Both the position numbers and the translations under genes were made by a program. Shown piece by piece: positions 25,162 through 36,863 of a stretch of DNA of 64,000 nt. The stretch covers positions 248,001 to 312,000 of the forward strand of contig NZ_CP129137.1 in NCBI RefSeq assembly GCF_030406905.1, given 5' to 3'. The DNA comes from Streptomyces sp. HUAS CB01. Its GTDB lineage: Bacteria; Actinomycetota; Actinomycetes; Streptomycetales; Streptomycetaceae. The notes under the pieces were generated by a model. That model was not told the origin of the DNA and made no database searches. It saw nothing but the letters and a program-made list of their open reading frames with translations. The first letter of the stretch is position 1, and each line of letters opens with the position of its first letter.

Positions 25162-26376
25162 TCATGCGGCGAGGGTGATGTCGGGGGTTCTGGATTCGTA
25201 GAAGGTGCCGTCGCGGAGCATGGCGAACAGGACGCTGATGCGTTGGCGGGCAAGTCGGAGGAGGGCCTGGGTGTGGGTTTTGCCGCGTGCTCGTTGCCGG
25301 TCGTAGTAAGCGCGGGAGGCCGGGTCGGCGTTCATGCAGGCGAACGCGGAGAGGAACATGGCGCGTTTGAGCTGCCGGTTTCCGCCCCGTGGTGCGTGCT
25401 CACCATGAATCGAGGTCCCCGACGACTTGGTCGTGGGGGCGAGGCCGGCGTAGGAGGCGAGGTGGGCGGCGCTGGCAAAGCCGGTGCCGTCGCCGACGGT
25501 GACCAGCAGGACGGCGGCGGTCCTGACCCCGACTCCGGGCATCGAGGTCAGGACCTGGTGAAGAGGGTGGGCCTCCAGCAGGGTGTCGATCTGGGCTTCC
25601 AGGGCCCGGCGCTGGTCGTGGACCGCGGCGAGCGAGCGGGCCAGCGAGGGGATGACCACGTTGAGGGTGTCTGTGCCGGGGACCACGACGGTCTGCTCGT
25701 CGAGGGCGTCGAAGACGTCGTCGATCAGGCGGGCGGCCATGCGCGGGGCCTTGGGCCGGATCACCTCGACGAGTCTGCGGCGGCCGGCCTTCCGCAGTGC
25801 GGCCGGGGATCCGTAGCGCTCGAGGAGCCAGGTGATGGCGGGGTGGTCCAGCCGCGGGCCCAGGACCCGCTCGAGGCTGGGGTGGAACTGGGTGAGCAGG
25901 CCGCGTATCCGATTGGAGGTGCGGGTGGCTTCCGCGGCGAGGTCCTGGTCGAAGCCCGTCAGGACGGTCAGCTCGGCGGTGATCTCGTCGGTCAGCTCCA
26001 GCGACCGCAGAGTGTGAGGCATCGTCCGGGCCGCGTCCGCGATCACCGCCGCATCCTTCGCGTCGGTCTTCGCCTCTCCGGGATAGAGATCGGCGATCCG
26101 CCGCATCGCCAGTCCCGGCAGGTAGGCGACCTCGCAGCCCGCGTCTCGGGCGACGGTCAGGGGCAGAGCGCCGATCGACGCGGGCTGGTCCACGATCACC
26201 AGGACGGTGCCGAACTTGGCCTTGAGCTTGTCGAAGACGGCCCGCAGCTTCGGCTCGCTGTTGGGCATCGGCTTGTCGAAGACCTTCTTCCCGGCCGGCG
26301 TGAGCCCGTGACCGTGGTGGGCCGTCTTGCCGACGTCCAACCCGAGGAAGACGCCTATGCCTTCGGTGTCTAACAT
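25162..26376 (-). CDS. IS110-family transposase (DEDD/RuvC-like)
   Basis: A 404-residue IS110 transposase. The N-terminal RuvC-like DEDD domain shows LGLDVGKTAHH and DAKDAAVIADAAR. A helix-hairpin-type segment SMPGVGVRTAAVLLVTVGD and the C-terminal serine region LASYAGLAPTTKSSGTSI hold the catalytic serine typical of the family. The ATG at 26376 is preceded by GGAAGGG. The protein looks intact. IS110 enzymes use an RNA from the adjacent non-coding end (bridge RNA) to choose target and donor DNA. Confidence 0.9.
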   Translation of the reverse strand: MLDTEGIGVFLGLDVGKTAHHGHGLTPAGKKVFDKPMPNSEPKLRAVFDKLKAKFGTVLVIVDQPASIGALPLTVARDAGCEVAYLPGLAMRRIADLYPGEAKTDAKDAAVIADAARTMPHTLRSLELTDEITAELTVLTGFDQDLAAEATRTSNRIRGLLTQFHPSLERVLGPRLDHPAITWLLERYGSPAALRKAGRRRLVEVIRPKAPRMAARLIDDVFDALDEQTVVVPGTDTLNVVIPSLARSLAAVHDQRRALEAQIDTLLEAHPLHQVLTSMPGVGVRTAAVLLVTVGDGTGFASAAHLASYAGLAPTTKSSGTSIHGEHAPRGGNRQLKRAMFLSAFACMNADPASRAYYDRQRARGKTHTQALLRLARQRISVLFAMLRDGTFYESRTPDITLAA

Positions 26377-26640
26377 CGCACCCTTCCGCAGGTGTTGATC
26401 GTGCTGGCCTCGGCGGTGGCACCGTGCTCGCGCATCCACGTTATGCAGACCTGCCGCCCGCGAACTGCCCGGCATTGCACCAGGCCGGGCGGTGGCCGGG
26501 TCTCTCATCAGCGTCTCCGACGGCACCTCCCGGGCCCGGCGACACCACCCCCCAGGTCATGCCTTCGACAGAGGGGACACAGTCATACCGGGCCCGGAGG
26601 CCAGCAGCCCCATTGCAGGACCGCGAAAAACATAACGGGG
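26377..26640 (-). ncRNA. Putative bridge RNA region of the IS110 element
   Basis: The 264-bp non-coding stretch between the element's left end and the transposase start. In the IS110 group, the bridge RNA is encoded upstream of the transposase, so it should lie here, read on the minus strand. I did not resolve its loops; several GC-rich short inverted repeats are visible. Confidence 0.35.
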
Positions 26641-26915: not shown

Positions 26916-27283
26916 AGTTCCCGCGAAGGGGGCGGTGACCGCCGCGGCGCCGGTCGCAGTCCCCTGCGGGGTGCGGGTCGCAGTGGCGATGCGGCGGCGC
27001 GCGCCCCTCCCCCCGAAGGTCCTCTCAGCCACCTCAATGGTCGGCTCGTCCGCGCCGACCAGCCGGGGGACCGCCTCGTGCACCGCAACCTGGCGGCATG
27101 TCAGGTCGACCGCGGCAACCGCCGCCGGCCGCTCGTCACCCTCACCGACGCGGGAAAGGAAGTCGTTCGAGTCCCATCGTCGTTCCGCTCAACGAAGCGT
27201 GGATTCCGCTCATTCGCAGGCCACTGCCGTGACCGACGGGCACCACGTGAAAAGCCGCAGAACCGGACCCCAAGAATCCGGAA

Positions 27284-27299
27284 TGTTAAATTCTTAACA
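27284..27299. promoter_or_regulatory. AT-rich perfect palindrome upstream of Dap operon
   Basis: TGTTAA-ATTC-TTAACA, a perfect 6-bp inverted repeat with a 4-bp centre, in an AT-rich island. It lies about 225 bp before the first gene of the diaminopropionate operon. It could be a repressor or activator site; I do not recognise the family, and it does not match the Zur or DmdR/IdeR boxes I know. Confidence 0.4.
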
Positions 27300-27354
27300 G
27301 CACGACTTTTGGGCGATCCTACTCAAGATATTGCTCGACAATCGCGGGAGACCT

Positions 27355-27528
27355 ATGGCACTCTTCAAGAGAGCCGAGGTCTCGGGGGACACCTGGACGG
27401 CACACCGGGGGACACAATCTCTTCTGCACGCCCGCGCCCGATCAGCGCGGGTGACGCGTATGGGCAAGCGCATCTCTGCGCGCATCGCGCGTTCGCATGC
27501 CCACAATCAACGGGGTAGATTTCAGTGA
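27355..27528 (+). CDS. Possible 57-residue small protein coupled to the Dap operon
   Basis: An open frame of 57 codons. It begins with ATG after GGGAG at 4-nt spacing, and its stop overlaps the GTG start of the sbnA-like gene (GTGA), which would couple the two. The product is basic (many Arg and His), with no signal peptide. Third-position GC is about two thirds, below the neighbours, so it may be a leader or chance frame rather than a protein with a function. A role as leader peptide in translational control is possible. Confidence 0.3.
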   Translation: MALFKRAEVSGDTWTAHRGTQSLLHARARSARVTRMGKRISARIARSHAHNQRGRFQ

Positions 27529-28514
27529 TAGCGGAAGAAGTCTATGATCTGGTATTGGATGACGTGTTCATCCGAGCCGATCATTTAGCACCAGGAAGCT
27601 CCGTCTTCCTCAAGATCGAGGGCCTGAATCCAGCGGGCTCGGTCAAACTCAAGACCGCCATCGCACTGGTGAGCCAGGCCGAGAAATCGGGGCGCGAATT
27701 CCCGCGCACCCGGCTGATCGAATCGACATCGGGAAACCTCGGGGTGGCCCTCGCCATGGTCTGTGCGGCGAAGGGATACCACCTCAGCTGCGTGACCGAC
27801 CCCCATGCCAACGCCCAGTCGGTGCGCCTGATGAAGGCGCTGGGGGCCGAGGTCGTGGTGATCGACCGACGGGACGGCAACGGCGGCTTCCTGCAGTCCC
27901 GCATCGACTACATCGGCGAGCGCCTGCTGCGCGAACCGGACACCTACTGGCTCAACCAGTACGCGAACCCTGCCGGTCCCCGGGCGCACCGGGAGCGCAC
28001 CGGCCGCTCCATCGTCGAGGAGATCGGCCATGTCGACCACGTCTTCATCGGCGCCGGCACCACCGGGACCCTTATGGGGTGTGCGGAGTTCTTCCGGCAG
28101 CACAGCCCGCACACCCGGATCATCGCGGTGGATTCGGTGGGATCGGTGACGTTCGGCGGCCCCGCGACCCCGCGCCACATCCCGGGTCTGGGCACCAGCC
28201 GACGCCCGGAAATACTGGACGAGAAGTTCGTCGACGAGGTCGTCCTGGTGTCGGAATCGGCCACCGTGGAGATGTGCAGAATGCTCGCCGAAGAGCGCGG
28301 ACTACTGCTCGGAGGATCCTCCGGAACGGTACTTGCCGCAGTTGCCGGAAAATCCAAGGACATTCCCGAGGGAAGCGTCATCGTGGCGCTCTCTCCGGAC
28401 TTCGGCGAACGCTATCTGGAAACCGTCTACAACGACGACTGGGTGGCCGAGCGCTGGCCCGAGGTAACGCACGCCGAAATCTCAGCGATTTCTCGGGTCC
28501 GGGCTCGGACCTGA
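27525..28514 (+). CDS. SbnA-like 2,3-diaminopropionate biosynthesis enzyme (ACEGA synthase)
   Basis: A 329-residue fold-type II PLP enzyme of the cysteine-synthase family. The PLP lysine lies in NPAGSVKLKTA (about K41), the asparagine loop is STSGNLGVALAM, and the phosphate loop is GAGTTGTLMG. In SbnA, the first enzyme of L-2,3-diaminopropionate (Dap) synthesis, O-phospho-L-serine and L-glutamate combine to N-(1-amino-1-carboxy-2-ethyl)-glutamate. The next gene encodes the SbnB-type partner, which makes this assignment firm as a pair. The start is GTG 27525, with a weak upstream ribosome site but coupling to a preceding small frame. Codon use at its 5' end is lower in GC than its neighbours, consistent with transfer. 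Confidence 0.85.
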   Translation: MIAEEVYDLVLDDVFIRADHLAPGSSVFLKIEGLNPAGSVKLKTAIALVSQAEKSGREFPRTRLIESTSGNLGVALAMVCAAKGYHLSCVTDPHANAQSVRLMKALGAEVVVIDRRDGNGGFLQSRIDYIGERLLREPDTYWLNQYANPAGPRAHRERTGRSIVEEIGHVDHVFIGAGTTGTLMGCAEFFRQHSPHTRIIAVDSVGSVTFGGPATPRHIPGLGTSRRPEILDEKFVDEVVLVSESATVEMCRMLAEERGLLLGGSSGTVLAAVAGKSKDIPEGSVIVALSPDFGERYLETVYNDDWVAERWPEVTHAEISAISRVRART

Positions 28515-28530
28515 GGAGAGGAATAGAAAC

Positions 28531-29532
28531 GTGTTCGACTTCGATGTGGTGGCGGGCGAGACCGTCCGCAACGTTCTCAGCGGTAAACGTGCCGAGGTCC
28601 TCGGCATTGTCGGCGATGCCTACCGTAGCCATGCGGCCGGGGAATCCGTGAACCCGGACAGCTATTTCCTGCGTTTTCCCGAGAAGCCCGAATCCCGGAT
28701 CATCGCCCTGCCCGCCTATCTCGGCGCCGATGTGCAGCTCGCCGGGATCAAGTGGATCGCCAGTTTCCCCAAGAACACACAGGCCGGAAAGCCCCGCGCC
28801 TCGGCCGTACTGATCCTCAACGACTACGAGACCGGCTACCCGGTCGCCTGCCTGGAAGCCGCGAACATCAGTGCGGCCCGCACCGCTGCCTCCGCCGCCG
28901 TCGCGGCGACCGCGCTGCGCCCGGGCGGCTTCGCCGGGACCCGGGTGGCGATCGTGGGCGGCGGCGTGATCGCCCGTAACATCTGCGACTACCTCCACGC
29001 GGCGGGCGTGGCGCCCGACGCGTACGTCGTGCACGACCTCCACCGGGAGTCGGGCGAGGCGCTGGTGGAGTATCTGCGCAGCACCCAGCAGCATTCCGCC
29101 TCGTTCACCGACGACCTGGGCACCGCGCTGGACGCCGAGACCGTGGTCTTCGCCACGACCGCGCTGGAGCCGTACGTCACCACGCCGTTCAAGCCCGGCC
29201 AGGTCGTGCTGAACGTGTCGTTGCGGGACCTCGCCCCCGAAGTGGTGCTGGCAGCCCAGAACATCCTCGACGACGTCGACCACTGCCTGAAGGCCGACAC
29301 CTCCCCGCACCTGGCCGAACAGCTCACCGGCTCACGGGACTTCGTGACCGGCACGCTCGCCGAAGTGCTCAACGGCGAGGTTGCGGCGGCCGCCGACAGG
29401 CCGGTGATCTTCTCGCCGTTCGGCCTCGGCGTCCTCGACCTGGCTGTCGGCGCCTATGTGCTGACGCAGGCGCGCGAGCAGGGCCAGTCCATCCCGATCC
29501 CCAACTTCTTCGGGGAGACGCGACGGTGGTGA
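28531..29532 (+). CDS. SbnB-like 2,3-diaminopropionate biosynthesis dehydrogenase
   Basis: A 333-residue member of the ornithine-cyclodeaminase/mu-crystallin family. The dinucleotide-binding Rossmann motif is VAIVGGGVIARNICDYL (about residues 137-153), and the segment IKWIASFPKNTQAGKPRASA matches SbnB proteins, which oxidise ACEGA with NAD+ and water to give L-Dap plus 2-oxoglutarate. GAGGAGAGG precedes the GTG start. It lies 16 bp after the SbnA-like gene and overlaps the following gene by 7 bp. With SbnA it supplies the rare amino acid L-Dap. Confidence 0.87.
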   Translation: MFDFDVVAGETVRNVLSGKRAEVLGIVGDAYRSHAAGESVNPDSYFLRFPEKPESRIIALPAYLGADVQLAGIKWIASFPKNTQAGKPRASAVLILNDYETGYPVACLEAANISAARTAASAAVAATALRPGGFAGTRVAIVGGGVIARNICDYLHAAGVAPDAYVVHDLHRESGEALVEYLRSTQQHSASFTDDLGTALDAETVVFATTALEPYVTTPFKPGQVVLNVSLRDLAPEVVLAAQNILDDVDHCLKADTSPHLAEQLTGSRDFVTGTLAEVLNGEVAAAADRPVIFSPFGLGVLDLAVGAYVLTQAREQGQSIPIPNFFGETRRW

Positions 29533-31463
29533 CCACACAGCTCACGGAAGGGGCCGGCCCCACCACTCAGCACACCGGGCACCACGACGACCGGCACACC
29601 ACCCTCGCGGTCGTAGGCGGTGGCTCTCGCGGCCTGGGTGTCATCGAGCGCCTGGTCAGCCTCTGTCTGGCGGACCCGTTCCCGGTCACCGTCCACCTGG
29701 TGGACCCCCGGCCGCTGGGCCCCGGATTCCACGTCGCCGACCAGCCCGACCATCTGCTGCTGAACACCGTCTGCACGCAGATCACCGCCTTCGCGGACGC
29801 CGAGATGGTCGACGGTCCCACACGGGTGACCGGCCCCTCCCTCTACGAGTGGTGCCGGGCAAGGGAGTTACGCCTTGCAGCGGACGGCTGCACCGTGCGC
29901 GAGGCATCCAAGGACGGTGCGTCGGCCGGCCGGGACATCCGCCCCAACGACTTCCTGCCCCGCCGGCTGCTGAGCGAGTACCTGCTCTGGGCCGCGCGGC
30001 GCATCGTCGCCGCCGCGCCCCCCTGTTTCACCCTCGTACCGCACGCCACCACCGCCCGTGAGGTGCGACGCTCCCCCGGCGGCGGGGAGGCCGTGCTCCT
30101 GGACGACGGCGGCCTGATCGACGCCGACGCGGTCTTCGTCACCGTTGGGCACCACTCGCTGTATCTTCCGGCCGAACCGCCGTCCGAGCCGCGGCTGGTC
30201 ACCCGGCCGTATCCGCTGCCCGCGGCCCTGGACGGGATCGCGCCGGGCGACCGGGTCGCGGTGCTGGGCATGGGGCTGACCGGCATGGACGTGATCGCGT
30301 CCCTGACGCTGGGCCGCGGCGGCCGGCACGAGACGACGGGCGAGGGCCGGACGCGCTACGTGCCCGGCGGCGACGAACCGCTGATCGTGCTCGCCAACCG
30401 CTCCGGTCTGCCGTCCCGCAGCCGCCCCCACCTCCACCCGGGGCGGGTCCGTTTCGCGCCGCTGGCGCTCACGCCCGAACGGATCCAGGAGCTGCGTGCG
30501 CGGCGGCCCGACGGCCGCATCGACTTCGTCGAGGACGCGCTACCGCTGGTCGAGGCCGAGATGGAACTGGCGTACTACCGGACGCTGTTGGGCCACCGAA
30601 GTGGTGATGTGCGCGCCGTGGGCGAGGAGTTCGCCCAGCGCGTCACCGCGTACGGCTGCGAGGGGCTGCTGGCCCAGCTGCGCGGGGACCACGGTCCGTT
30701 CCCGCTCCGGGGGGTCCTCGGCGCGCGGTTCGCCGACCGGCAGTGGAGCGAACAGGGCGACTACACCGCGTGGTTCACCGCCCAGGTCGCCGACGATCTC
30801 GCCGAGGCCCGGGCGGGGCTGGGCGTGAGCCCGGTCAAGGAGGCCCTGGAGGTGCTGCGCGACCACCGTGACGCGCTCCGGTCGGTGATCGACGCCCCGG
30901 GTGTCGACGAACCGTCGCTCGAGCACTTCTTCGGCACCTTCGCGTCCACGGTCAACTCTCTGGTGATCGGTCCGCAGCTGGAGCGGTCGGCGGAAATGCT
31001 GGCTCTGCTGGACGCCGGGGTGCTCCGGCTCGGCCCCGGCCCCCGGCCCAAGGTCATCGCGCCTTCCGGGCAGGGACCGTGGCGTCTGGAGTCCACCTGT
31101 CTGGCCCGGCCGGAGAGCGTGGAGGTCGACCATGTCGTCCTCGCCCACGTGGCCGAATCCGCCGCCGACCAGCTGCCCGGCTCACTGCTCGGCCGGCTCG
31201 TCGCCGCGGGCCGCGTCACCACCCTGGGGGGCCGCGGCACCCGGGTCCCCGGTCTGCGCGTGACCCGGGAGGGCCAGGGCATCGGCCCGGCCGGGGACGT
31301 ACAGCCCCGGCTGTTCTTCCTCGGGCCGCACACCGAGGGCTCCAGCTACTACAACCACTACGTTCCGTCACCCGGCGCGCCCTCCCGTGCGCTCAAGGAC
31401 GCCGAACTCGCCCTTCGCACCGCCCTGACCACCCTGCCCGTCCCGACCGCGAGGACCTCATGA
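29526..31463 (+). CDS. FAD/NAD(P)-binding oxidoreductase
   Basis: A 645-residue protein of the FAD-NAD(P)-binding class (NAD_binding_9-like). The N-terminal Rossmann loop is VVGGGSRGLGVIERL, with LVDPRPLGPGFH completing the nucleotide site. A second nucleotide-binding loop, VAVLGMGLTGMDVIASL, lies about residue 240. The C-terminal region has conserved segments (TEGSSYYNHYVPSPG) but no recognisable separate domain. GGGGAG precedes the GTG start. Similar proteins occur near PLP enzymes in amino-acid-derived secondary metabolism. It could oxidise or hydroxylate the Dap nitrogen or a condensation product. The reaction is unknown. Confidence 0.72.
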   Translation: MVTTQLTEGAGPTTQHTGHHDDRHTTLAVVGGGSRGLGVIERLVSLCLADPFPVTVHLVDPRPLGPGFHVADQPDHLLLNTVCTQITAFADAEMVDGPTRVTGPSLYEWCRARELRLAADGCTVREASKDGASAGRDIRPNDFLPRRLLSEYLLWAARRIVAAAPPCFTLVPHATTAREVRRSPGGGEAVLLDDGGLIDADAVFVTVGHHSLYLPAEPPSEPRLVTRPYPLPAALDGIAPGDRVAVLGMGLTGMDVIASLTLGRGGRHETTGEGRTRYVPGGDEPLIVLANRSGLPSRSRPHLHPGRVRFAPLALTPERIQELRARRPDGRIDFVEDALPLVEAEMELAYYRTLLGHRSGDVRAVGEEFAQRVTAYGCEGLLAQLRGDHGPFPLRGVLGARFADRQWSEQGDYTAWFTAQVADDLAEARAGLGVSPVKEALEVLRDHRDALRSVIDAPGVDEPSLEHFFGTFASTVNSLVIGPQLERSAEMLALLDAGVLRLGPGPRPKVIAPSGQGPWRLESTCLARPESVEVDHVVLAHVAESAADQLPGSLLGRLVAAGRVTTLGGRGTRVPGLRVTREGQGIGPAGDVQPRLFFLGPHTEGSSYYNHYVPSPGAPSRALKDAELALRTALTTLPVPTARTS

Positions 31464-32665
31464 GCGACAACCGTGACACCTACACCCCGTGGACCCGGGG
31501 CTACCGGCCCGAGACGCGTGCCGCACAAGGCGACGGCTGGCGCTGCCCGACCACCGGAGCGATACCGCCGCCGATCGGGCTCGGCGCCACCTTCGCCCGG
31601 GACGACCAGTACCGCACCCGCACCGGCCACGCCTATCTGCGCGACCAGGGAACGCCCGGCTACGAGCAGGTCGAGGACGTGGTGGCGGGCCTGGAGGGCG
31701 GCTCGGAGGCGCTGGTGTTCTCGTCGGGTATGGCCGCAGCCACCGCCGTCTTCCAGGTCCTGCCCGCCGGTTCCCGGGTGGTGGTCCCGCAGACCATGTA
31801 CTTCGGGCTGACCAAGTGGCTGCTGGAGTTCGGGCCGCAGCGGGGCCTCGAGGTCGTCCCCGTTCCCATGGACGATCTGGACGCGGTGTCCGCCGCGGTG
31901 GCGGCGGCACCGACCGCGCTGCTGTGGGCGGAGTCGCCGGCCAACCCCACCTGGCTGGTGACCGACCTGGCGGCGTGCGCCGAGATCGCGCACCGCGCGG
32001 GAGCCCTGTTCGGTGTGGACAACACCGTCCCCACCCCGGTGCACACCCGGCCCTTCGAGCTGGGCGCCGATCTGATCATGCACTCCGGTACGAAGTACCT
32101 CAACGGCCACACCGACGTCGTGGCCGGCTTCCTGGTCGCCGCGCCCGCTCCCGCCGAGGACCGCCACGCCCTGTGGGAGCGGCTGCGGCTGCACCGGCGG
32201 CTGACCGGTCCGATCCTCGGCCCGTGGGAGACCTATCTGCTGATGCGCGGCATCCGCACGCTCTACCCGCGGATGCGTCAGATATCAGCCACGGCCATGG
32301 CGCTGGCCGAGCACTTCGACGAACACCCACTGGTCAGCCGGGTTGCCTACCCCGGACTGCCCAACGACCCGGGGCACGGGGTCGCCGCCCGGCAGATGAC
32401 CGGCGGCTTCAGCGGCATGCTCTCGCTGCACGTCGCCGGGGAGTGGCAGCGTTCCCTGCGTGCTGCCCAGCACTGCGAACTGTTCATCCGCGCCACTTCC
32501 CTGGGCGGGGTGGAAAGCCTCATCGAACACCGATACACCTTTGAGGGACCGGGCAGCTCCTCTCCGAAGGACATGCTGCGCCTGTCCATCGGCCTGGAGA
32601 GCCCGACCGACCTCGTGGCCGATCTGGAGCAGGCATTGGAACGCGCCGCTAAGGACGAACATTGA
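31460..32665 (+). CDS. Cys/Met-metabolism PLP enzyme (cystathionine gamma-synthase fold)
   Basis: A 401-residue fold-type I PLP enzyme. The PLP lysine is in HSGTKYLNGHTDVVAG (about K212); the preceding motifs FSSGMAAATAVF and VDNTVPTPVHTRPFELGAD are typical of cystathionine gamma-synthase/methionine gamma-lyase enzymes. The start overlaps the FAD protein stop by 4 nt, so it is cotranslated. Such enzymes perform gamma- or beta-replacement or elimination, often through vinylglycine. In this operon it may attach the Dap amine to an activated homoserine or serine, but the substrate is not shown by the sequence. Confidence 0.8.
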   Translation: MSDNRDTYTPWTRGYRPETRAAQGDGWRCPTTGAIPPPIGLGATFARDDQYRTRTGHAYLRDQGTPGYEQVEDVVAGLEGGSEALVFSSGMAAATAVFQVLPAGSRVVVPQTMYFGLTKWLLEFGPQRGLEVVPVPMDDLDAVSAAVAAAPTALLWAESPANPTWLVTDLAACAEIAHRAGALFGVDNTVPTPVHTRPFELGADLIMHSGTKYLNGHTDVVAGFLVAAPAPAEDRHALWERLRLHRRLTGPILGPWETYLLMRGIRTLYPRMRQISATAMALAEHFDEHPLVSRVAYPGLPNDPGHGVAARQMTGGFSGMLSLHVAGEWQRSLRAAQHCELFIRATSLGGVESLIEHRYTFEGPGSSSPKDMLRLSIGLESPTDLVADLEQALERAAKDEH

Positions 32666-33984
32666 GCTCTGACACCTCCCACGCCGACAGCACCGGCGAG
32701 GCCGGCGGCAGCCCTGCCGCCGCCCCGGCTGGGGCCACCACGGCGTCCCCTCCGGCCGGCTCCGGGGGGCCGCCGGAAAGCTCCGGCCGACAGGACGGCC
32801 GCCCCGGGCTGTTCCGCGACATGTCGCTGTCCGCGGTGCTGGCCGGGTTCGTGGCCGTGGTCGTCTCGTACTCCGGACCGCTGGTCATCGTCCTCGCCGC
32901 AGCCGCGGCCGGGCATCTGGACAAGGAACAGACCAGCTCGTGGGTATGGGCCATCTCCATAGGCAGCGGCCTGACCTGCATCGGGCTCAGCCTGCGGACC
33001 AGGATGCCGGTCATCACCGCATGGTCGACACCCGGTGCCGCGCTCCTCGTCACCAGCCTGGGTGCCTACTCCTACGAGGAGGCCATCGGGGCGTTCATCG
33101 TCACCGGGGTCGTGATCACCCTGGTCGGACTGACCGGGGTGTTCGGCCGGCTGATGCGGCAGGTGCCCACGGCCGTCGTCGCGGCGATGCTCGCGGGCAT
33201 CCTGTTCTCCTTCGGCACCGGCGTGTTCACCTCACTGAAAACCGCGCCCTGGATCGCCGGGACGGTGCTGGCCGGCTATCTGCTCGGCAAGCGTTACCTG
33301 CCCCGCTACGCGGTCCTGATCGCTCTGGCGGTGGGAGTGGCGTGCAGCGCGGCCACCTCGCGGCTGGACATGCGGCTGGACCATCTGGAGCTGGCCCGCC
33401 CGGTGCTGACGGCTCCTCACTTCTCCGTGTCCTCCCTGATCGGCATCGCGGTACCCATGATCCTGGCGACCCTGGCCTCGCAGAACGCCCCCGGCATGGC
33501 CGTGCTCACCGCGTCCGGCTACCAGCCCAGGGACCGGCTGCTGATCGGCTCGACGGGCCTGATGTCCACCGCCCTGGCGCCCTTCGGGTCGCACGCCATC
33601 AACCTCGCGGCCATCACCGCGGCGATCTGCACCGGCCCGGAATCGCACCGCGACCCCAAGCGCCGCTACGTCGCCGGTGTCGCGTGCGGAGCGTTCTACC
33701 TCCTGATCGGGGCCTTCGGAACGACCCTCGTGGTGTTCTTCGCGGGCCTGCCGAAAGAACTGGTCGCCGCCATCGCCGGTGTCGCGCTGTTCGGCGCGCT
33801 GGCCGGCGGGCTGACCGGAGCGGTCACGGAGGAGAGGGACCGCGAGGCCGCCCTGATCACCTTCCTGGCCACCGCGTCGGGAATGACCCTCTTCGGCGTC
33901 GGATCGGCCTTCTGGGGCCTGGTGTTCGGTGTCGTGGCCCATCTCGTACTGACCCGCTGGAGGTCCCGCCCCGCCACCGCCTGA
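32662..33984 (+). CDS. BenE-family membrane transporter
   Basis: A 440-residue integral membrane protein. After about 52 residues of Ala/Gly/Pro/Ser-rich cytosolic leader there are about 12 hydrophobic segments. The core sequence MPVITAWSTPGAALLV, FGSHAINLAAITAAICTG and VGLTGVFGRLMRQVP are typical of the benzoate/H+ symporter BenE family, related to the nucleobase-ascorbate transporters. The TTG start overlaps the PLP-enzyme stop and has AAGGA at 6-nt spacing. BenE proteins are usually importers, but in this operon it may export or re-import the small product. An in-frame ATG at the first hydrophobic segment is a less likely alternative start. Confidence 0.82.
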   Translation: MSSDTSHADSTGEAGGSPAAAPAGATTASPPAGSGGPPESSGRQDGRPGLFRDMSLSAVLAGFVAVVVSYSGPLVIVLAAAAAGHLDKEQTSSWVWAISIGSGLTCIGLSLRTRMPVITAWSTPGAALLVTSLGAYSYEEAIGAFIVTGVVITLVGLTGVFGRLMRQVPTAVVAAMLAGILFSFGTGVFTSLKTAPWIAGTVLAGYLLGKRYLPRYAVLIALAVGVACSAATSRLDMRLDHLELARPVLTAPHFSVSSLIGIAVPMILATLASQNAPGMAVLTASGYQPRDRLLIGSTGLMSTALAPFGSHAINLAAITAAICTGPESHRDPKRRYVAGVACGAFYLLIGAFGTTLVVFFAGLPKELVAAIAGVALFGALAGGLTGAVTEERDREAALITFLATASGMTLFGVGSAFWGLVFGVVAHLVLTRWRSRPATA

Positions 33985-34001
33985 GCTTGCGCTCAGGGCG
34001 A

Positions 34002-34043
34002 GTACGGCGGCCGCCCCGGTGTGTACGGGGGCGGCCACCGTAC
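34002..34043 (+). terminator. Strong terminator of the Dap operon
   Basis: Two 16-nt arms (34002-34017 and 34028-34043) pair with a single mismatch around a 10-nt loop; the arms begin GTACGG and end CCGTAC. A small 7-bp hairpin (CCTGAGC-TTGC-GCTCAGG) overlaps the transporter stop. Together they mark the operon end. Confidence 0.8.
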
Positions 34044-34284
34044 TGCCTGCGTCCGTCCACGAGCGGGCGTCTCCTCGATCAAGCCCCCTGCCCCGTCGCG
34101 GACCGCCTCTCCCCGCCACCGTCGACGCATCGGCGCGGAATCCGAGATCCGCGGCACGATCCGCGTCCGAGGACGTCGAACCCGCGGTCGTGACCCCGTC
34201 CGGTCCGCCGGCAGGTGTTGCTCCAGTCGGACGCACGCGGCCCTCGGTCCGTCATGGCTGCGACCCGCACCCCTTGCTCCGACC

Positions 34285-34805: not shown

Positions 34806-35128
34806 CGCGCAGCGGCTTGCCCGGTGCTGGTCGACGCACCCCGATGCCCGCCACCGGAATCACGACAGGCGCCCCTCCGCTGGGCACCTGCACCTACTCC
34901 GCCGCGACACCGACGAGACCGATCGCCGACGCGGTGGTAGTGACCGTGCCGCGTCGCGTGCTGCGGGCTGTCCGTGGCCTGGCTGATCTCCTGGTGAGTG
35001 GGCAGGAGCCTGTCCGATGCGGCCGGGACCGGGCTCGGCCGGCTTGATCCTCGAGCGCCTGGAGCCGAACCAGCCGGAGTGCACCGGGAGCATCCTCTCT
35101 GCCGCTCGTGATCGGGCAGCGACCCCGT

Positions 35129-35159
35129 TTGACCTTGACACGGTGACAAGGTCTTCACT
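35129..35159 (+). promoter_or_regulatory. MerR-type promoter with palindromic operator
   Basis: A -35 TTGACC (35129-35134) and a -10-like TTCACT (35154-35159) are separated by 19 bp, the over-long spacer typical of MerR-regulated promoters. Between and partly over them, 35131-35153 is a 23-bp palindrome: GACCTTG and CAAGGTC flank CAC-G-GTG, with one unpaired A on either side. It is 23 bp upstream of the first of two genes, the second of which encodes a MerR protein. This strongly suggests autoregulation. Confidence 0.75.
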
Positions 35160-35181
35160 GCTTCCCAAGGAGGTGGTCCCG

Positions 35182-35865
35182 ATGACCGCGACGAGGCAGG
35201 AGACGGATGCGCTACGAGCGCTTCGGGGACTGGAGGACAGCCGTTCATCAGTACGCCTGCGCGCTGCTCTGGCGGTAGGCACGGCTCCTGACCCGTGCTT
35301 CGTCGACAAGCTCGTCGAGCGATGCGCGATCGAGCCCGAGTTCTTCGTCCGCGACATGCTGACCTGGGCACTCGTCCGCCACCCGGTGTCCCTGACGCTC
35401 CCCGGTCTGCTCCGCGAGGTCCGTTCGGAGCGTGCGCAGGCACGCAGCCAGGCGCTGCACACACTGTCCAAGATCGGGGACCAGCAGGCATGGGCTGCGA
35501 TCACCCAGGCAGTGTTGTCCGACGCCGACGACGAGGTGGCGAGGAGCGCCTGGCGGGCCGCGGTCGTGCTCGTGCCGGAGGGCGAGGAGTCCGCATTGGC
35601 CACGGTGCTGGCAACGCAGCTCGGGCGCGGTGAGCAGGAGACACAGCTCAGTCTCAGCCAGGCCCTGGTCGCCCTGGGGGAAGTGATCGTGCCGGCCCTG
35701 CATGCCGCGACGACCGCCTCCGATCCGCGCAGGCGTGCGCACGCGGTCGCGACACAACGGCTGCTGCGCGATCCGGACGCCGGATTCGAGTCGGCGATCG
35801 AGGAGGCCAAGCGCGTCGTGGCCCTCGCCGGGGCCCCCAAGACTGAAGATCGAGAACTGTGCTGA
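35182..35865 (+). CDS. HEAT-repeat protein, partner of MerR regulator
   Basis: A 227-residue protein made of about five HEAT-type helical repeats: LRAALAVGTAP, LPGLLREVRSERAQARSQALHTL, AWAAITQAVLSDADDEVARSAWRAAV and further repeats to the C-terminus. It has no other domain. A clear AAGGAGG precedes the ATG. Its stop overlaps the start of the MerR-family gene (35859), so the two are cotranslated from the MerR-type promoter upstream. It probably binds a ligand or protein partner; its C-terminal repeats resemble those of the MerR protein, suggesting a duplicated module. Confidence 0.8.
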   Translation: MTATRQETDALRALRGLEDSRSSVRLRAALAVGTAPDPCFVDKLVERCAIEPEFFVRDMLTWALVRHPVSLTLPGLLREVRSERAQARSQALHTLSKIGDQQAWAAITQAVLSDADDEVARSAWRAAVVLVPEGEESALATVLATQLGRGEQETQLSLSQALVALGEVIVPALHAATTASDPRRRAHAVATQRLLRDPDAGFESAIEEAKRVVALAGAPKTEDRELC

Positions 35866-36863
35866 TCGGTGAGGTGGCGAGACGGTCCGGGGTCAGCGCC
35901 CGCATGCTCCGGCACTACGAGTCGCTCGGTCTGGTGCGGCCCTCGGGTCGTTCGGGCTCCGGATATCGGGAGTACTCCGCGAAGGACATCCGGCGCATCT
36001 TCCACATCGAGAGCCTGCGGTCGCTGGGCCTGTCGCTGCGTGAGATCGGGCGCGCGCTCGACGATCCCGGTTTCACGCCGTCGGCGCTCGTCGGCGACCT
36101 CATCCGTCAGACGAGTGACCGCATCGCGGCCGAGACCGAGTTGCTCACGCGGTTGCGCCGAATCGACGCCGCGGACCCTGGCGGCTGGGAGGACGTCCTC
36201 CAGGTCGTCGCGCTCCTCCAGGCACTGGGGTCGCAGAGCGCCGACGCCCGCCAGCGCGCCGCCCTGGCCTCGGTCGACCGGGTTCCCGTGCCGGTGGAGG
36301 CTCTGGTCGAGGCGGCACTGAGCGAGACGGAGCCGAACGTCGCCGGCGCCCTGCGGTGGGCACTTGCGCAATCGGGCGAAGGCGGCGCGGAACTGCTGGC
36401 GAAGGGCCTCGGCTCACCGGTGGCCGCGGTGCGGAAACGTGCCGTTCAGTCCCTCGCCGCGATGCCGGGTGGTGAGGCGACCACGCACCTGCGGGACGCC
36501 CTCACGAACCCCGACATCGAGGTGCGTGGGTGTGCGGCGCTGGCGCTCGGGCCACGCGGAGTGGCCGAAACGGTCCCGACGCTCATCGACTTGATCGTGG
36601 CGGGACGGAACGACACCGAGGCAGCCGACGCACTGAGCACGCTGGCGAGCGACACCGCGACGGCCGATCAGATCGCGACCAGGCTCGTCGACATCCTCGC
36701 CCACGACACCACGGAAGCGCCTGCACGCGGACGGCTGACCCAGGCGCTGGCGGGCATTCCGGGGACGACGGCGTCACGTGCCCTCGTGGAGCTGTCGCAT
36801 GACGAAGACCGTTCTGTCGCGTTGACTGCCGCCTACCTTCTCCAGCTCCGCGACGCGCGGTGA
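35859..36863 (+). CDS. MerR family regulator fused to HEAT repeats
   Basis: A 334-residue fusion. Residues 1-70 are a MerR winged helix (MLIGEVARRSGVSARMLRHYE, wing with SGYREYSAKDIRRI). A dimerisation helix (about 80-110) follows. The remainder (about 125-330) consists of HEAT-type repeats (e.g. AVRKRAVQSLAAMPGGEATTHL and IEVRGCAALALGPRGVAETV). The effector-binding part of normal MerR proteins is thus replaced by a repeat solenoid. It overlaps the preceding HEAT gene by 7 bp. It presumably binds the 23-bp palindrome at 35131. Confidence 0.85.
   Translation: MLIGEVARRSGVSARMLRHYESLGLVRPSGRSGSGYREYSAKDIRRIFHIESLRSLGLSLREIGRALDDPGFTPSALVGDLIRQTSDRIAAETELLTRLRRIDAADPGGWEDVLQVVALLQALGSQSADARQRAALASVDRVPVPVEALVEAALSETEPNVAGALRWALAQSGEGGAELLAKGLGSPVAAVRKRAVQSLAAMPGGEATTHLRDALTNPDIEVRGCAALALGPRGVAETVPTLIDLIVAGRNDTEAADALSTLASDTATADQIATRLVDILAHDTTEAPARGRLTQALAGIPGTTASRALVELSHDEDRSVALTAAYLLQLRDAR

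Follow-up and report, generated by a model that had tools for sequence, protein, structure and literature searches.

The locus considered here raises the question of what a streptomycete makes from L-2,3-diaminopropionate (Dap) when the genes for its synthesis share an operon with a flavin adenine dinucleotide (FAD) enzyme, a pyridoxal phosphate (PLP) enzyme and a transporter. The operon lies in a 64,000 nt stretch of the 8.1 Mb genome of Streptomyces sp. HUAS CB01 (contig NZ_CP129137.1, positions 248,001 to 312,000; hereafter the window, to which all coordinates refer). Genome comparison reveals that its first three genes, sbnA, sbnB and the FAD enzyme gene, are a widely conserved core, and that the FAD enzyme resembles amino acid N-hydroxylases with an altered active site. 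With moderate confidence, we propose that Dap is made, N-hydroxylated, processed by a PLP enzyme of the cystathionine gamma-synthase (CGS) fold and carried by a BenE-family transporter.

A conserved five-gene operon

The five genes are encoded on the forward strand in the order sbnA, sbnB, FAD enzyme, CGS-fold enzyme and BenE, separated by a gap of 16 nt and then by overlaps of 7, 4 and 4 nt. Protein families were assigned by Pfam and NCBIfam profile scans, with the curated NCBIfam cut-offs where these are given. The SbnA homologue (27525..28514) scores 394.9 bits against TIGR03945 (cut-off 349.95), and its closest PDB entries are those of Staphylococcus aureus SbnA (5d84-5d87); by family it would join phosphoserine and glutamate in N-(1-amino-1-carboxy-2-ethyl)-glutamate. 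The SbnB homologue (28531..29532; TIGR03944, 387.7 bits against a cut-off of 326.9; closest PDB entry 4m54) would then release Dap. The two adjacent genes thus encode a Dap synthase pair, each member of which exceeds its NCBIfam equivalog cut-off. The third gene (29526..31463) encodes a protein with an FAD-NAD(P)-binding domain (PF13454) that matches no NCBIfam model; it is the proposed Dap N-hydroxylase, for which we use the name DapN. The CGS-fold gene (31460..32665; PF01053) was taken to start at the ATG at 31460, internal to a longer open reading frame beginning at 31079. BenE (32662..33984) has a TTG start and matches PF03594 and TIGR00843, the latter at 408 bits against a cut-off of 203.4. 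The coordinates, spacings and families of the compact operon described in an earlier sequence-only reading of this DNA all hold.

Staphyloferrin B and other Dap clusters contain the same Dap-forming pair, over the curated cut-offs, but differ in that the five genes here include neither a siderophore synthetase nor a non-ribosomal peptide synthetase (NRPS). The earlier statement that no NRPS lies nearby is borne out more widely. A condensation-adenylation-thiolation (C-A-T) query taken from locus L080 found none at E<=1e-5 in the window and 28 five-gene (type-1) loci, except for an NRPS-matching stretch at the edge of L039, approximately 6 kb from the operon.

The search for further sets of these five genes, which the same reading had suggested, revealed the FAD protein at 66-100% identity in 12 of 392 Streptomyces genomes, the source genome included. 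All 12 carry the five genes in identical order, and the CGS protein, used as a separate query (E<=1e-115), was found in exactly the same 12. In the 11 relatives, with gene starts from our own simple gene caller, the sbnB/FAD overlap is 7 nt in every case and the FAD/CGS overlap is 4 or 1 nt. By our own clustering, the genes flanking the 12 copies mostly differ; the exceptions are genes common to each of the related pairs L043/L044 and L046/L047, a SerA-like gene that follows BenE in both L040 and L041, and a further small family. The five-gene set is therefore confirmed as a real, conserved operon. A chance neighbourhood, such as co-location in this strain only, was set aside given the co-occurrence of the FAD and CGS genes in 12 genomes and the kept order and overlaps. 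The broader earlier view is likewise supported: the operon is a conserved one for Dap, and its FAD and PLP enzymes probably modify the product that the transporter carries. The S. nigrescens copy (L056) sits on a plasmid record.

The next FAD matches were at 42% identity in genome G289, 39% in G248, and 45% in G241 and 44% in G060 (partial length), followed by many at approximately 36%; the source genome itself has a second FAD-family match. In G289, G248, G241 and G060, sbnA and sbnB adjoin the FAD gene, and their FAD proteins belong to the same clade as that of the window.

The three-gene core and its exchangeable neighbours

Peptide patterns from the FAD alignment were searched against 84,980 species, each represented by a single genome, which samples those FAD relatives that carry the alignment peptides. 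This gave 95 related stretches, of which 80 were kept, representing 77 distinct loci. As the scan used FAD-protein patterns alone, the neighbouring genes are an independent observation. The FAD gene is adjoined by sbnB at all 77 loci and by sbnA at 75, in two phyla; at one of the two loci lacking sbnA (L125), the contig ends there. The FAD proteins of sbn-linked loci form a single clade with support of 0.995 (82 sequences, some sharing contigs). Among FAD paralogues at approximately 36% identity, sbnA, sbnB and the add-on genes described below were present in none of 14, within flanks of up to 1.5 kb per side.

Other neighbouring genes were identified by tblastn with labelled references (E<=1e-12). 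The cupin, MetRS-like, DAO, lysine monooxygenase, lactate permease, ThrH, HTS and carbamoyltransferase labels derive from Pfam and NCBIfam scans, for which one or two proteins stood for each label. The CGS and BenE genes accompany the core at 16 of the 77 loci, in Streptomyces and Cellulomonas. A lactate-permease-like transporter takes their place at 10 loci, together with a SerA-like gene in five of these and ThrH in two. Three loci combine a homologue of homoserine O-acyltransferase (HTS) with a LysE-type exporter and a SerA-like gene. Six have a carbamoyltransferase, with an NRPS present in all three of those tested (L080, L082 and L124). ThrH homologues are found at five of the 77 loci. 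In Photobacterium galatheae (L106), the sole add-on is a LysE-type exporter. The contigs of L120 and L125 end close to the core. The carbamoyltransferase, lactate-permease and ThrH types are each scattered over separate branches of the tree.

The largest group, 38 of the 77 loci, in Pseudomonas and Burkholderia (among L079-L129), has the core embedded in an operon with cupin, MetRS-like, DAO, periplasmic-binding-like and lysine 6-monooxygenase genes (families scanned in L095). In line with passages of a review, a set of this kind makes hydrazinoacetate. The Pseudomonas loci share the cupin, MetRS-like and lysine 6-monooxygenase genes with the MtRS-cupin operons described in 2010 (PMC2922099), some of which include ornithine cyclodeaminase and cysteine synthase genes; the text of that paper does not contain the word diaminopropionate, and the passages seen here do not describe the N-hydroxylase clade or the five-gene set.

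Several single loci differ in layout. In syringae-type loci, sbnA and sbnB are called as a single frame of approximately 670-730 aa. L106, with its LysE-type exporter, FAD gene, sbnA and sbnB in altered order, is perhaps the smallest version. Streptomyces capoamus has two versions of the core on separate contigs, L064 with CGS and BenE and L092 with HTS, LysE and the SerA-like gene. The Saccharothrix and Actinosynnema loci L080 and L082 both comprise the core, carbamoyltransferase and NRPS and end again in a BenE-type gene; in L080 a thioesterase and an MFS gene intervene.

This distribution bears on the order of events. In the sequence-only reading, the PLP enzyme condensed Dap with an activated amino acid and the FAD enzyme then modified the adduct. 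That order is unsupported, since the PLP gene is an exchangeable add-on, at 16 of the 77 loci, while the FAD enzyme is the fixed partner of sbnA and sbnB and a relative of N-hydroxylases. A Dap synthase, a seemingly specificity-switched N-hydroxylase and exchangeable tailoring genes together look like a variant of known chemistry.

The flavoenzyme and the fate of Dap

The FAD protein shares its fold and overall architecture with the L-aspartate N-hydroxylase FzmM (PDB 8cp2). Kept as in FzmM and CreE (8cp2, 8cp5) are Arg13, Arg266, Arg409, Arg412, Arg416 and Asn62 and, in the window protein, also Arg276. The aspartate-contacting residues Asn413 and Arg577 are both replaced, by Asp (Asp449) and Ser (Ser615), respectively, and Trp51 is replaced by His. 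Within the clade, the Asn413 position is Asp or Glu in 75 of 78 sequences and the Arg577 position is Ser or Thr in all 78. In the published passages on FzmM, Asn413 lies at the rear of the chamber and an N413E mutant loses aspartate hydroxylation. In the predicted model, the predicted local distance difference test (pLDDT) score is below 50 for residues 1-22 and 605-617, and the latter take in much the greater part of the stretch YNHYVPSPG, Ser615 included; these scores are too low for an argument from pocket geometry. By sequence and fold, the enzyme is specifically an N-hydroxylase relative, distinguished from FzmM and CreE by the sbnB gene that adjoins every one of its 77 relatives. No CreD-type nitrosuccinate lyase was found among the five operon genes or ten other scanned window genes; an L-aspartate hydroxylase/nitrite cassette of the CreE-CreD kind was set aside given the lack of a lyase in the operon and the residue switch.

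In the proposed pathway, SbnA and SbnB would supply Dap, and the FAD enzyme, as a member of a distinct clade of FzmM/CreE-type amino acid N-oxygenases, would use NADPH and O2 to hydroxylate one of its amino groups, most likely the beta. The product, N3-hydroxy-Dap, would be an aza-isostere of homoserine, with a CH2-NH-OH side chain in place of CH2-CH2-OH. Clusters bearing the core may decorate or move this 'aza-homoserine' by means of a homoserine-type acyltransferase, a phosphotransferase, an Rht-like exporter or a carbamoyltransferase, which would suit an N-OH group too; homoserine-type enzymes would have been recruited because N3-hydroxy-Dap mimics homoserine. The HTS protein matches PF04204 at 329 bits, and ThrH proteins match NF010109 at 209 and 219 bits (cut-off 133). 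Judged from these neighbouring genes, the add-on pattern favours the beta nitrogen and the hydroxylamine. In operons of the window type, the CGS-fold enzyme would bind N3-hydroxy-Dap like an O-acylhomoserine, the usual substrate of this fold, or use it as a cysteine-like nucleophile, and BenE would transport what results, which is probably a small antimetabolite destined for export.

The CGS-fold protein is among the best conserved of the set (82-95% identity of operon copies to that of the window). It scores 310.5 bits against PF01053, and of the 43 NCBIfam models matched it is under the cut-off in the 25 inspected; the best equivalog score is 310.2 for PRK07811, against a cut-off of 513. By score, it is no bona fide cystathionine gamma-synthase. 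The PLP site resembles that of the CGS/gamma-lyase family, in that Y59, R61, Y114, D187, K212 (the PLP lysine) and R374 align with identical residues of 3qhx, and none of the six varies among the 12 operon copies or in 120 homologues among the matches listed (8000 candidates scored, at least 120 homologues). Elsewhere the protein differs from the family. TSLG replaces the ESLG of MetB in the window protein and in 120 of the 120 homologues listed; TPGY replaces NPTR, with NPT present in 43 of the 120 listed and the R in none; and the MTH stretch has no residues in the window protein or in any of the 120 listed. As a long shot, the enzyme might take an O-activated N3-hydroxy-Dap, in which gamma-elimination would cleave the N-O bond to give a PLP-bound aza-vinylglycine with an electrophilic nitrogen, and replacement there would form an N-N, N-S or N-C bond. 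If so, this would be a PLP route to nitrogen-heteroatom bonds.

If the N-hydroxy-Dap pathway is correct, a three-gene cassette in two phyla yields an N-oxidized Dap that mimics homoserine, a branch point from which methionine, threonine and isoleucine are made. Such a compound would serve as a simple exportable antimetabolite and as a unit from which larger N-O or N-N compounds are built. A flavoenzyme clade so far labelled by a general FAD/NAD(P)-binding domain would thereby gain a named substrate. The dozens of natural variants with differing add-on genes make the pathway logic testable. The L-alanosine cluster (aln/ala) is alike in being Dap-derived and N-oxidized, and in the published passages N3-hydroxy-Dap is a proposed intermediate. 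There, however, the passages assign hydroxylation to AlnG, which resembles acyl-CoA dehydrogenases, and Dap is bound to a carrier protein; neither an AlnG-like flavin dehydrogenase nor a carrier protein is among the five operon genes. Apart from the alanosine proposal, none of the open-licence papers listed in the searches deals, judged by title and the beginning of its abstract, with a gene set of this kind as a source of N-hydroxy-Dap, nitroalanine or aza-homoserine.

A number of observations weigh against this pathway. HTS or ThrH is present at only eight of the 77 loci, and ThrH also acts as a phosphoserine phosphatase. The best NCBIfam model for HTS (MetA), TIGR02137 for ThrH, the homoserine/threonine efflux family model that best matches the LysE-type exporters, and the SerA models are all under their cut-offs, so that the homoserine link is one of family resemblance. 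Position 413 is Asn in L114 and L127 and His in L120. Arg276, a further aspartate contact, is kept in just 24 of the 78 clade sequences, the window protein included, and the pocket thus varies inside the clade. At the rear of the entry chamber, the Asp or Glu at position 413 could grip the beta-ammonium group and present the alpha-amine instead. In Streptomyces sp. HD (L066), sbnB and the FAD gene are present but sbnA, CGS, BenE and the other listed add-ons are absent nearby, although the contig continues; this may reflect decay, rearrangement or an assembly fault. For the CGS-fold enzyme, the product from Dap may be either the PLP substrate or the nucleophile, and the reaction is a guess. Finally, characterized relatives oxidize repeatedly, PcxL to an oxime and FzmM and CreE to a nitro group, in the passages that describe them.

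PcxL, the phosphonocystoximate N-oxygenase, is grouped with FzmM and CreE as a multiply hydroxylating N-oxygenase in a passage of PMC10404684; it acts on aminoethylphosphonate, and is likened to the present enzyme by description, not by sequence. With its oxime formation as precedent, the beta-amine of Dap might be oxidized twice to an oxime, or the alpha-amine might be oxidized instead. The PLP, NRPS and homoserine-type neighbours would, however, be expected to require a free alpha-amine, and we consider this outcome unlikely, if the least so of the alternatives.

Three oxidations of Dap could also lead to a nitro amino acid such as 3-nitroalanine, from which the CGS-fold enzyme, replacing CreD, would eliminate nitrite. 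PLP enzymes of this fold catalyse eliminations. FzmM and CreE produce nitrosuccinate and, in the passages on triacsin, a pathway of the hydrazinoacetate type found at 38 of the 77 loci is paired with an aspartate hydroxylase and lyase. On the other hand, the five genes include no nitrite acceptor, a CGS gene of the operon kind is absent from 61 of the 77 loci, and acyl, phospho or carbamoyl transfer would fit N-OH better than nitro. This route is accordingly rated improbable.

More doubtful still is an aza-cystathionine chelator, in which the CGS-fold enzyme would join Dap to O-acylhomoserine and the FAD enzyme would oxidize the adduct to a metal-binding aminocarboxylate, much as the earlier reading suggested. 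Dap is cysteine, the normal CGS acceptor, with NH2 for SH, and the PLP-site residues are retained. Yet the FAD gene has no adjoining operon-type CGS gene at 61 of the 77 loci (three being contig-edge or exceptional cases), so that the FAD enzyme seems independent of a CGS adduct; these 61 include L080 and L082, where the opposite strand carries a CGS-family gene at 38-42% identity, at a distance of approximately 5 kb. No siderophore synthetase was found among the five operon genes or the ten other scanned window genes, and one iron-box-like regular expression had no match in 20 upstream regions. The siderophore reading thus found no support and was set aside. The earlier suggestion of a metallophore, with its analogy to ethylenediaminedisuccinate (EDDS), for which the passages seen treat zinc regulation, is left unsupported. 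It is least probable of all that the true substrate of the FAD enzyme is the Dap-glutamate adduct made by SbnA, or another amino acid, with Dap a co-substrate elsewhere, since the SbnB that opens this adduct is encoded at all 77 loci, even though a dicarboxylate could be held by the arginine cluster.

Leader and flanking regions

The upstream region was compared among 23 distinct type-1 loci, after the pairs L055/L042, L057/L041, L062/L045, L065/L043, L067/L048, L069/L050, L073/L053 and L130/L051, which are the same contigs, had been counted once. In the window, two CGGGGGA boxes (27383-27389 and 27406-27412, forward strand) precede a CTTCTGC leader element (27421..27427, forward strand), which is the complement of sbnA codons 3-5 (27531-27537). 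In an alignment of 19 type-1 upstream regions, GGGGG of box 1 and GGGG of box 2 are invariant. The whole 8.1 Mb genome has a single match to the box-box-CTTCTGC pattern and none to its backwards control. Two GGGGGA-like boxes, CTTCTGC (CTTCCGC in L059), a leader of approximately 100 nt and a GTG start are found at 20 of the 23 loci; the block is absent in L068, L070 and L105.

In all 20 leaders that have the element, seven of seven pairs with sbnA codons 3-5 are possible, with G-U allowed. The pairing is at most suggestive, because L068, which lacks the leader block, keeps identical first sbnA codons. RNAalifold predicts six pairs with zero covariation in the upstream alignment, seven single leaders fold modestly better or no better than shuffles (z -1.91 to +0.46), and an Rfam search of 27200-27700 returned nothing at E<=5. 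Type-1 operons thus conserve 27383-27545 as a putative promoter/leader block, in which a clear ribosome-binding site is not evident. Uncommon codons are conserved at the start of sbnA, for example ATA, which accounts for five of the 78 Ile codons across the five genes.

Downstream, a terminator-like hairpin (34001..34044, forward strand) lies beyond BenE. The strength claimed earlier for this terminator stands as far as folding is concerned (33990-34060 folds at -47.7 kcal/mol, with a z of -4.37 relative to shuffled sequences), but the hairpin has no T-run and is absent from the output of the consensus terminator scan. That scan, for promoters and T-run terminators, gave no promoters and two terminator-like sites, both intragenic, against 1.9 expected. 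On the opposite strand, approximately 1 kb 5' of the operon, is an IS110-family transposase gene (25162-26526). On the other side, 35017-36863 encodes an adjacent pair of HEAT-repeat proteins, the second of which bears a MerR DNA-binding domain.

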